A DNA stretch of 64,000 nucleotides, from contig NZ_CP139781.1 in assembly GCF_019679435.2 (NCBI RefSeq), forward strand, positions 992,001-1,056,000, written 5' to 3'. The notes under the pieces are model-generated. The model saw nothing but the letters and a program-made list of their open reading frames with translations, did no database searches and was not told the DNA's origin. Shown here piece after piece: positions 6,501-36,143 of the stretch (position 1 is the first letter of the stretch; each line of letters opens with the position of its first letter). This DNA is from Actomonas aquatica (GTDB taxonomy: Bacteria > Verrucomicrobiota > Verrucomicrobiia > Opitutales > Opitutaceae). The position numbers and the translations under genes are program-made.

Positions 6501-6520
6501 TAGGGTGTGTCTGGGCAAAA
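6501..6520 (+). repeat. Single end-like copy of the TAGGG(C/T)GTGTCTGGG motif
   Basis: The 20 bases closely match the terminus of the inverted repeat at 34169-34354 (TAGGGCGTGTCTGGGAAA there; TAGGGTGTGTCTGGGCAAA here). The motif begins one base after the TAG stop of the upstream gene. No matching second arm was found in the following 60 bases, so this looks like a lone or decayed end. Confidence 0.45.
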
Positions 6521-33406: not shown

Positions 33407-34171
33407 ATGAACATCCTTCGCCTGCGCATGGTTTGGGAACGCCTCGCCAAAGAGGACCCGTATTGGGCGGTGCTCACGTCCCCCGACAAGGCCGGCAACC
33501 GTTGGCAACTGGAGGAGTTTTTCCAAACCGGCCGCGACGAGGTCGACGCCTGCCTCAACGAGATGAAGCGCCATCGCCCCGACGTCGCGCGCGGTGCCGC
33601 GCTCGACTTTGGCTGTGGTGTCGGCCGTCTTTCGCAGGCGCTCGCCCGGCACTACGATCGCGTCACCGGCATCGACGTCGCCGAGCGCATGATCGAACTG
33701 GCCAATCGCCACAAACCGAGCGACGCCGCCGACCGCATTCGCTACGTGCACAACGCCCGCAGCGACCTGCGCGTGTTTGATGACGGCGCTTTCGATTTGG
33801 TGTTCAGCCTCATCACGCTGCAGCACATCCCGCCGCCGCTCATCGAGGGCTATTTGGGCGAGTTCGCCCGCATCACCAAACTGGGCGGACTGATCTATTT
33901 CCAACTCCCGTCGTTCGCGCCCAACGCGACGCCCGAAGTGAAAAAATGGTCGTGGTATCCACCGACCCTCTACACGCGCCTCAAGCGCTGGACGGGCCGC
34001 TGGTTCCGCCGCTTCACCGGCATCGGTGACACCATGCACATGAACACGCTGCCGGAAGCACGCGTGCGGGAACTCCTGCGCGCCGCCGGAGCCGAAGTCA
34101 TCAGCGCCCGCCAGCAAACCGAGCAGGACGGCTGCATCAGCGTCATCTACCTAGCCGAACGCGAGGTTTAG
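33407..34171 (+). CDS. Class I SAM-dependent methyltransferase
   Basis: The 254-residue protein has motif I ALDFGCGVGRLSQAL (about 65-79), the acidic ribose contact TGIDVAERMIELA, and FDLVFSLITLQHIPP before the post-motif ITKLGGLIYFQLPS. These place it in the Methyltransf_11/25 group. A Trp/Arg-rich C-terminal stretch (LYTRLKRWTGRWFRRF) may bind membrane or a polyanionic glycan. It follows the GT2+GT4 gene by 16 bp, so it probably methylates a sugar of the same glycan, perhaps as a chain cap. Its TAG stop codon is the first three bases of the 186-bp inverted repeat. Confidence 0.82.
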   Translation: MNILRLRMVWERLAKEDPYWAVLTSPDKAGNRWQLEEFFQTGRDEVDACLNEMKRHRPDVARGAALDFGCGVGRLSQALARHYDRVTGIDVAERMIELANRHKPSDAADRIRYVHNARSDLRVFDDGAFDLVFSLITLQHIPPPLIEGYLGEFARITKLGGLIYFQLPSFAPNATPEVKKWSWYPPTLYTRLKRWTGRWFRRFTGIGDTMHMNTLPEARVRELLRAAGAEVISARQQTEQDGCISVIYLAEREV

Positions 34172-34354
34172 GGCGTGTCTGGGAAAGGCGAGGAGCCAGC
34201 GTGAGTGGGAAAAGGGGCTGGCGCGGCGTTGACCACGACGGCATGGCCCTCTGGGCCACCTCCGTCGCGGCCGCCTGGCGCGAGCCCCTTTTCCCGCTCA
34301 CCCTTCGGGCTGCGCTCCCAGCGATGGCTCCTCGCCTTTCCCAGATACGCCCTA
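34169..34354. repeat. 186-bp near-palindromic element between convergent genes
   Basis: The two ends are inverted copies: the first 30 bases (TAGGGCGTGTCTGGGAAA onwards) match the reverse complement of the last 30 with a single mismatch. A second matching block, GGGAAAAGGGGCT, lies further in on both arms. The centre is TGGCCC-TCT-GGGCCA flanked by GACGG/CCGTC. One arm has about 15 extra bases. The terminal TAG on each strand is the stop codon of the flanking gene. It carries no convincing coding sequence and would form a very strong hairpin, so it may serve as a bidirectional terminator. Confidence 0.75.
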
Positions 34355-35992
34355 GTCCAGCACCCGCCCCTTCACCGCAAACTTCAACAACCGCACCGAC
34401 AACTTGCGCGGATCGGCCGGATTGGACTGCGCCGGCGCTTGGTCCGAGGTCACCCAAAGTTCGCTGCGGCCAGGCGGCAGCACCACCCCACTCACTCGCC
34501 AGTCCGTCGGAGCTCGGGTGAGGTGCTCCTGCCACAGCACCGTATCGCCCTGCTTGAGCTGACCGAGTCGATCGGTGTGCACCGACCACTGTCCGCGGAT
34601 CTCCACTTCGACCGGCCGATCGTAGGGATTAAACACTTCGATCGCGGCGTCGCCTTCCGACCAACGCCACTGGCGATCGCCGTCACTTTCCGCCCGGTGC
34701 CATGGCCGCGGAAAATCGACGCGCAATTCGCCCTGCGGCAGCGCAGCCTCGGCGACCTCTGCCCGGTTGGTGATCAGCACGGTGTGAATCTCGCGCGTGC
34801 GCGGCTCCAACGAGACCGGGCCAAAAAACATCGTCAGGTTCCCCAGCAGCAGCAGCGCCCACCAGCGGCGACCTTTCGGCAGCAGCAGATTGAAGCCCAA
34901 CAGCAGCGGCAACAGCACCCGACTCGACGCGCCCGGATGGCCCTCCCACACCGCCGTGCCCAGCACGAGCGCGAGCACCGCAAACGGCACCGTCAGCCGC
35001 CACGCCGCGCTGCTCCACCGCCACCAGCACAACAAAAACGCCGCCTGCACCGTCACGCTGATGTGCGTCGCCAGACCGCCGCCGAGGTATTTCCACGCCA
35101 CGTTGCCTTCCACCACGGCCGAGGCCAGCTCCGCCCACCGCTCCGCGAAAGCGACAAACGGCAGCGAGAAATTCCGCACTCCCGCCAACGAGCCGCCCGT
35201 GTCGCCAAACCGCCAACGCAGGATGGCAAACCACACCACAAAGGGCAGCGCCACCAGGATGCCTTGCAGGATGGCCATACCCCAGCCGCGCGCCGATTTC
35301 CAATTCGCGGGCGCCAGTCCAGCCGCCCCTAGCAAATTCGTTTCCTTGGCCAACCCACCCATCGCCAATACCGCCGTAGCGCGCCAAGGGTGACCGGTTT
35401 CGATCCATTTCAACCCCAGCGCGAGGAGCAACAAGCTCGGCGCGTCCACCAGCGCCGCAAACACGCTGAACAATACGCCGATCGAGAGCATGATGCCGAG
35501 CCAGCGCATCGCGCGGTCCAGATCGGTGGGTGGAAACCAGCGCAGCAGCAGCCAGCCGAGCAGGAACCAGCACACCAGATTCTGCAGCGCAAAGACGTTG
35601 AGCACCCAGTTCGGCTGCCCGACGCCAAATAGATACGCCGTCCACGGCAGCAATATCCGCCGCGCCCGGTAAGGCAGGTTATCGATCGATTTGGCCAACA
35701 CCGGATCCTGCAGGCCCGGATCGATCGCGATCTGAGCGTAATATTGCGCGTCGTAGCCGGGCGACCGGAAATGCCGGTAAACCACCACGTCGCGATCGCT
35801 CGCCCAGTCGATCCCCTGCGGCGGCTCCTCGCCCACGCCGATCAGGTAGGTGTAACCAAAATGCGGCACATGGTAGTCACTGATCTTCGCCACGATCCAT
35901 CCCGCCGCCAACACGTAGAGCAACACCAGCCCGGGGCGCACGCCCGCCTTGCCGACGGGGTTTTGGATCCAGGACCAGACGCGTTGCAACAT
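34352..35992 (-). CDS. Polytopic membrane protein of the glycan locus
   Basis: The 546-residue protein has an N-terminal helix (LVLLYVLAAGWIVAKI) and then the loop FRSPGYDAQYYAQIAIDPG...YRARRILLPW. That is the 'YDxQxYYxxAxDP ... YRxRRIL' signature of a widespread family of bacterial membrane proteins that I regard as GT-C-like. About nine further helices follow, then a C-terminal beta-rich domain of roughly 150 residues. ATG at 35992 is preferred to a TTG eight codons upstream. It is divergent from the GT2 gene at 36144 and convergent with the methyltransferase. Its TAG stop is supplied by the end of the inverted repeat. Confidence 0.6.
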   Translation of the reverse strand: MLQRVWSWIQNPVGKAGVRPGLVLLYVLAAGWIVAKISDYHVPHFGYTYLIGVGEEPPQGIDWASDRDVVVYRHFRSPGYDAQYYAQIAIDPGLQDPVLAKSIDNLPYRARRILLPWTAYLFGVGQPNWVLNVFALQNLVCWFLLGWLLLRWFPPTDLDRAMRWLGIMLSIGVLFSVFAALVDAPSLLLLALGLKWIETGHPWRATAVLAMGGLAKETNLLGAAGLAPANWKSARGWGMAILQGILVALPFVVWFAILRWRFGDTGGSLAGVRNFSLPFVAFAERWAELASAVVEGNVAWKYLGGGLATHISVTVQAAFLLCWWRWSSAAWRLTVPFAVLALVLGTAVWEGHPGASSRVLLPLLLGFNLLLPKGRRWWALLLLGNLTMFFGPVSLEPRTREIHTVLITNRAEVAEAALPQGELRVDFPRPWHRAESDGDRQWRWSEGDAAIEVFNPYDRPVEVEIRGQWSVHTDRLGQLKQGDTVLWQEHLTRAPTDWRVSGVVLPPGRSELWVTSDQAPAQSNPADPRKLSVRLLKFAVKGRVLD

Positions 35993-36143
35993 AGAGGGAA
36001 AACGGGAAACCCCCAACGCAGGAGAAGTCCGGGCCCAGCGTCAATCGCCGCGGTCCAACTCCGGCACTTCCCCCGCCCCGCCATTTCGCCACCTCCGACG
36101 TTGCACGGTTCCGCCGTATTCCCCTCAATGACCGCCCTTTCCG

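Follow-up and report, generated by a model that had tools for sequence, protein, structure and literature searches.

A probable miniature transposon at the shared stop codons of two convergent genes in Actomonas aquatica, and the folded cassette that it carries

Within the window analysed here, a 64,000-nt stretch of the Actomonas aquatica genome (contig NZ_CP139781.1, positions 992,001 to 1,056,000), two convergent genes run into the opposite ends of a single hairpin, and the outermost bases of that hairpin supply the stop codon of each (Table 1). The question that this locus raises is how an inverted repeat came to fit two stop codons so exactly. We consider it highly probable, taking the explanation as a whole, that a non-autonomous transposon (MITE) inserted into a TTAG in which the stops of the two genes overlapped, that it was moved, most likely, by an IS5-type DDE transposase targeting YTAR and duplicating the TA, and that its 186-bp form fits the loss of 89 bp from a longer element.

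Table 1. Features at the hairpin locus and its flanks (window coordinates)
Feature	Position	Strand	Remarks
Class I methyltransferase gene	33413..34171	+	Methyltransf_11, E 1.2e-19; last codon is the left TAG
Left TA of target duplication	34169..34170	.	TA plus the element's first G makes the TAG stop of the + gene
Element proper, MITE-like	34171..34352	.	182 bp between the TAs, 186 bp including both TAs
Left terminal inverted repeat, GGGCGTGTCTGGGAAAGGC...	34171..34201	+	
Conserved 69-nt bulged hairpin	34217..34285	-	R2 match 85.3 bits, E 2.4e-18
What is left of the 39-nt linker, with mini-hairpin ACCC-TTC-GGG, plus GGGCTG	34300..34312	+	
Right terminal inverted repeat	34322..34352	-	
Right TA of target duplication	34353..34354	.	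Reads TAG on -, stop of the - gene
554-aa protein gene	34352..36016	-	Membrane-like by appearance; last codon is the right TAG

The outer 30 bases on each side are inverted copies with one mismatch, as the first-pass annotation of this DNA had claimed, the 33-nt arms of the 186-bp element are 94% complementary, and the centre it gave, TGGCCC-TCT-GGGCCA, is found in the element. Its description of a near-perfect palindrome suits the ends but not the interior, where 27 right-half bases find no counterpart on the left (23 of these make up the stretch 34302–34324); what lies at 34169–34354 is an imperfect 186-bp hairpin. Of the 186 bases, 156 are paired in the DNA fold, which has an MFE of −85.4 kcal/mol against a mean of −41.2 for shuffled sequences (z −13.4; none of 200 shuffles equals it), and the RNA fold gives a z of −12.7. 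As is expected of a MITE, the element is short, bounded by inverted repeats and non-coding, the ORFs listed across the 186 bp being mechanical ones. When 23 loci were compared with Rfam, no element reached gathering score and the sole match was a tRNA in one flank; for 33500–35000 of the window the best match, a miRNA model, scored 41.6 bits where gathering requires 168.

That the terminal TAGs stop both convergent genes proved correct: the plus-strand ORF ends at 34169–34171 and the minus-strand ORF at 34352–34354 (CTA on the plus strand). The label ‘membrane protein’ given earlier to the minus-strand gene rests on appearance, since the 554-aa protein has no Pfam match at E 0.1; relatives of it (E 1e-10) occur in 133 of 200 genomes of the family. 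Joining the flanks with one TA gives GAGGTTTAGTCC, and at the site, TTTAGTCC, TAG and TAA overlap, so that the flanks, once joined, leave the plus-strand gene with V-stop (TAG) and the minus-strand gene with D-stop (TAA) as their ends. Since both stops are already present there, the proposal that the element creates stop codons is not supported for the window copy, and we suggest that overlapping stops would predate the insertion, with neither protein altered. Given a G at both element ends, TA plus G would have rebuilt TAG on each side, and the minus-strand stop would have passed from TAA to TAG without the change of any amino acid. No empty allele at the same site was seen among the relatives examined. 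In three same-genus relatives with enough flank (L263–L265, of which L263 is 64% identical), the minus-strand gene is convergent with a glycosyltransferase, not a methyltransferase, and in two genomes of another genus (L270 and L272) it is convergent with a methyltransferase that is 45–47% identical, and the element is absent.

The earlier view of a mobile, non-coding hairpin element agrees with the distribution of copies, and the element looks mobile: BLAST of the 6.1-Mb A. aquatica genome returned full and partial copies, and there are more in related genomes. When up to three mismatches are allowed, the end motif TAGGGCGTRTCTGGGAAA is present at 29 sites in the A. aquatica genome, compared with none for the reversed pattern; 12 of these pair into six two-ended elements and the remaining 17 are single ends. 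Besides the window copy (186 bp), the two-ended elements lie at 730280 (186 bp), 3891369 (168 bp), and 564157, 3151194 and 5907330 (275 bp each). Dispersed copies and a target duplication (TA at both ends of the window copy) are likewise as in MITEs. The core of the window copy is reversed relative to that of the 730280 copy, and recombination between the arms could have flipped it. Elsewhere in the window, at 6501–6518, there is a lone end motif, TAGGGTGTGTCTGGGCAA, with two mismatches and no partner found nearby, which is possibly the end of a decayed element.

Target choice was read from elements bounded among the scanned copies of A. aquatica and other genomes. Bounds were obtained for 95 of 107 copies, including one duplicate, and the duplicate and the 12 without bounds were dropped; in six more (L117, L193, L195, L216, L061 and L173) the inner bounds had been mis-called, and their removal left 88. 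TA is present at both ends in 40 of these, at one end in 32 and at neither in 16, five of which duplicate another dinucleotide (AA, TG or GA). In 33 of the 36 both-TA elements with enough flank (36 of the 40) the target is YTAR, as CTAG (11), CTAA (9), TTAA (8) or TTAG (5). YTAR accounts for 75 of 863 TA sites in the window, giving a binomial p of 5e-32 for 33/36, with a background drawn from the window only and elements drawn from several genomes. A YTAR site presents TAR, a stop codon, on either strand; with G as the first base of the element, insertion restores TAG on each side.

A target of this kind points to IS5-type insertion sequences. IS711 is described as duplicating the TA of YTAR (PMC2266754) and YTAR is reported as an IS5 duplication motif (PMC10359306); IS5 itself is described as duplicating four bases (PMC11677980). 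One of the single ends, at 3350469, is identical to the element end, and a truncated DUF4096 (IS4/5) gene (E 2.3e-20) comes directly after it. Moreover, two insertion sequences bounded at both ends, with TA-G ends in CTAG, have ends related to those of the element (TAGGGGCTGTTTGCAAA and TAGAGCCTGTTAACAC): one of 904 bp in A. aquatica and one of 829 bp in genome G155, the transposase gene of the latter being split into two frames. An intact partner with exactly the element's ends was not found, and no insertion sequence with the elements' ends was present among 30 DDE_Tnp_1 loci taken from a longer list (13 genomes) and eight DUF4096 loci. PF13340 is matched in six of the 17 carrier genomes searched, and therefore most carriers have no recognisable partner of the DUF4096 kind. 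The element thus resembles IS5-type insertion sequences such as IS711 in its YTAR target, duplicated TA, short inverted ends and the DUF4096-type gene beside an identical end, and departs from them in being 186 bp long, non-coding and furnished with a hairpin, for which the model R2 (see below) finds no match in the IS loci L032, L230 and L260. The A. aquatica genome also holds six 534-aa DDE_Tnp_1 frames of equal score (G000:C1:1425820, 1430723, 1435626, 3084609, 3088154 and 6108175), three of them spaced exactly 4903 bp.

It had also been suggested that the element inserts at stop codons. Much of this is explained by the YTAR target, and an excess over one of two controls leaves room for some preference. 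An ORF of at least 100 codons has its stop touched by 20 of 36 elements. For YTAR sites the figures are 36 of 72 across the window (p 0.68) and 71 of 266 in the sequence that flanks the copies themselves (p 0.0008). The elements' excess over these flanking sites remains when sites inside ORFs are left out (p 0.005–0.011), the ratios of stop to elsewhere then being 20 to 7–11 for elements, 71 to 84–124 for flanks and 36 to 3–5 for the window. Stops on both sides are seen for 3 of 36 elements, 4 of 72 window sites (p 0.68) and 1 of 266 flank sites (p 0.006). At 112 TA boundaries, with the longest frame of at least 100 codons considered, 35 are in phase with TAG, 18 are in another phase and 59 have no such frame. 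The flank control is the better matched, because the flanks share genomes with most elements, and its two-fold difference implies that some stop preference may remain beyond YTAR; a true excess of elements at stops, through selection or targeting, is possible. Selection for stop codons as the main cause was rejected, considering that the choice of YTAR comes first, but the window and flank controls disagree.

The interior of the element contains a 69-nt hairpin composed of a P1 stem, a 2-nt bulge, a GGCG/CGCC helix, a 4-nt bulge ending in CAA, and variable P3 and P4 helices. Covariation is seen throughout this bulged hairpin, GCAAGGCG ... AACGCC, even as its helices and the element ends vary. 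A covariance model of the 100-nt core (R1), in a scan that scored few candidates per genome and in which some sites match on both strands, gave matches in 21 of 200 genomes and 8 of 49 genera of the family, with up to 20 per genome; of eight same-genus genomes, A. aquatica included, three were matched. Once identical core rows had been removed, which reduced 107 copies to 102, standard pairs fill 90.5% of pair cells, compared with 79.8% in shuffled alignments and 39–47% with slid partners. Both sides vary in 25 of 39 pairs, a count that by itself says little because slid versions nearly match it (19–22), and information per position is 1.54 bits in the core and 0.80 in the arms, a comparison biased toward the core because the copies were found and placed by it. 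Unpaired positions are also conserved, C19 in 99 of the 102 copies and CAA at 70–72 in 99–100 of them.

A second model, R2, covers the 69 nt and was built from ten diverse copies with hand-chosen rows and a hand-written structure. Here 97.6% of cells are paired, 14 of 25 pairs show change on both sides as opposed to 3–6 in slid versions, and the covariation score is 0.514 against 0.162 for shuffled and at most 0.103 for slid alignments. R2 is matched in 22 of 372 genomes and 12 of 100 genera in the order, and in 15 of 387 genomes and 10 of 197 genera in the phylum, which contig titles give as Verrucomicrobiota; four of these 15 are outside the order and are candidates, with E 1e-5 to 1e-4 per genome. 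In those four (G450, G374, G385 and G464; L414–L420) the GCAAGGCG/CAACGC hairpin lies, by eye, within larger fold-back stretches. Across 20 representatives of less than 70% identity fitted to the model, the invariant part comes down to GCAAGGCG and AACGCCGC, while P3 and P4 vary and 91.5% of cells are paired. We set coding in the core aside because the hairpin tip shows compensatory changes that, judged by codon reading, are not synonymous. Repair between the palindrome arms could keep the pairing without selection, though not the conserved bulges.

Some loci carry two such hairpins. All 23 loci with two opposite-strand R2 matches have them facing each other, plus then minus (three weaker partners have E above 0.0005), across a spacer of 38 (one locus), 39 (17), 40 (four) or 41 nt (one) that, by eye, contains a small middle hairpin. 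These loci come from nine genomes in four families: three in A. aquatica, six in G416, four each in G040 and G597, two in G039, and one each in G097, G728, G079 and G357. Same-strand matches, which lie further apart, occur in L162, L176 and L417 and are taken as separate elements; L162 (G211:C44:1-4300) has three hairpin matches in 4.3 kb, two of them in the same orientation with starts 173 bp apart. Of 30 loci passed through a bounding script, 23 span 269–283 bp despite different ends and seven span 140–261 bp, some of the seven being truncated or mis-bounded. The ends among bounded loci are of the types TAGGGCGTGT..., ATACCRAATT..., TAAAACCTATCTC... and AGGGCATTTCG...; for the ATACC type a TNA duplication, read by eye, fits 12 of the 14 loci of G416 and G597. 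Duplication of TNA marks another IS5 subgroup. Additionally, the A. aquatica copy at 3891369–3891536 has the element's ends and no R2 match, and therefore the cassette is found without these ends and these ends without the cassette.

The window copy can be related to the two-hairpin form by size. In the 275-bp form the two GGCTG copies are separated by 89 bp, which is 275 minus 186, and the 186-bp form thus fits a deletion between the GGCTG repeats of an element with two facing hairpins. The window element is probably such a deletion derivative, if, as we infer, the change ran from the longer form to the shorter, and the GGGCTG within 34300..34312 is where the 275-bp form would have lost its 89 bp.

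Since the fold persists while the ends and the target rule change, we favour recognition of the cassette by a conserved host factor over recognition by a transposase; it would be read, as a folded strand of DNA or of RNA, by something common to the hosts and not by an end-specific enzyme. We tentatively propose that the cassette (two bulged hairpins that face each other over about 39 nt of spacer, with the invariant junctions GCAAGGCG and AACGCCGC) may be an evolutionary unit in its own right, which rides miniature transposons with several end types and target rules and has lasted here and there across the phylum because its fold is bound by a conserved host protein. Acting as DNA, the cassette could conceivably form a folded strand or a cruciform close to each end, to which a host protein would bind and so help transposition or copying linked to replication, whichever the transposase. 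The facing layout and fixed spacing of all 23 opposite-strand pairs are consistent with such a role, as are the constant span of 23 of the 30 bounded loci in the face of differing ends and the lack of a clear bias with respect to transcription; however, most elements bounded among the scanned copies have one hairpin only, and 3891369–3891536 has these ends without a cassette. An action as RNA, in which a protein would bind the bulges in read-through transcripts of the adjoining gene and affect mRNA ends or stability, is in our view slightly less likely. It would account for conserved unpaired bases between covarying helices, for a G.T pair, present in 95 of 102 copies, which as RNA could be G.U, and for facing hairpins, which supply one correct copy on either strand. 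Yet orientation shows no clear bias, genes that read into elements meeting the core forward in 20 cases and in reverse in 15, and with that pair excluded G.T and A.C cells number 12 and 10 in the 20 representatives. For G.T against A.C, compared for a sign of which strand folds, the counts are 222 to 119 over all copies, 63 to 45 in 28 representatives (p 0.10) and 34 to 29 at near-invariant pairs.

Two further readings concern the hairpin as a whole. The idea of a terminator-like element, raised in the first-pass annotation, which would be retained or selected where genes end, draws on a very stable hairpin between convergent genes and on the excess at stops over flank YTAR sites, with or without sites inside ORFs; we judge it improbable, given that no intrinsic-terminator-like site (a hairpin then a T run) is present at the locus, where shuffles have a mean of 0.7, and that in the window YTAR sites are found at stops just as frequently as the elements are. 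That the element is a repeat of the REP/REPIN type, mobilised by a RAYT (IS200-like) transposase, we think very improbable. REP dimers and REPINs do share the inverted pairing of two facing hairpins around a spacer, and Opitutus terrae is described as rich in GTAG repeats (PMC3733652), but the definition of REP/REPIN given in the same source includes a terminal GTAG tag, and no more than 11 of 99 copies have exact GTAG/CTAC at any one fixed offset (CGTC in at most 26). The degenerate form GYRG is found in 76 of 99 copies, but inside the hairpin. The element differs, moreover, in its transposon ends, that is, terminal inverted repeats, in its TA or TNA duplication and in its long stems, of tens of pairs as compared with mostly 6–9 bp in REP/REPIN.

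Among known systems, the bacterial MITEs named ERIC, NEMIS, RUP and Nezha (PMC3733652) are alike in being of 70–300 bp, non-coding and hairpin-forming, with inverted ends and several copies. The present element differs in that its interior fold is common to genera and families though the ends differ. For MITEs, a shared interior fold with differing ends is unusual. A search of the open literature, to which most subscription papers are external, yielded, among the papers listed, none describing the element family by title or abstract start, and the listed papers matching two motif strings look unrelated by title; a term search of a review of prokaryotic MITEs (PMC10969869) gives no hit for Verrucomicrob or stop codon. 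The combination of a YTAR target with a terminal G that rebuilds TAG on both strands would offer a simple rule by which tiny transposons can lie harmlessly in stop codons, and miniature transposons whose interior fold outlasts changes of their ends hint at an unrecognised folded motif with a binding partner.

Finally, the ends and the core were sought in wider collections. The end pattern has no matches in viral or genome contigs, and the element sequence has none in plasmids or phages; the core pattern has no matches in viral contigs and is found in 79 stretches of genome contigs. A core match is present in a cultured relative, Verrucomicrobia bacterium IMCC26134 (CP011265). Several of the 79 (L287, L290, L295 and others) are MAG contigs titled Akkermansia muciniphila; the core pattern is otherwise listed for Opitutaceae and other Verrucomicrobia, and the Akkermansia titles may be wrong.
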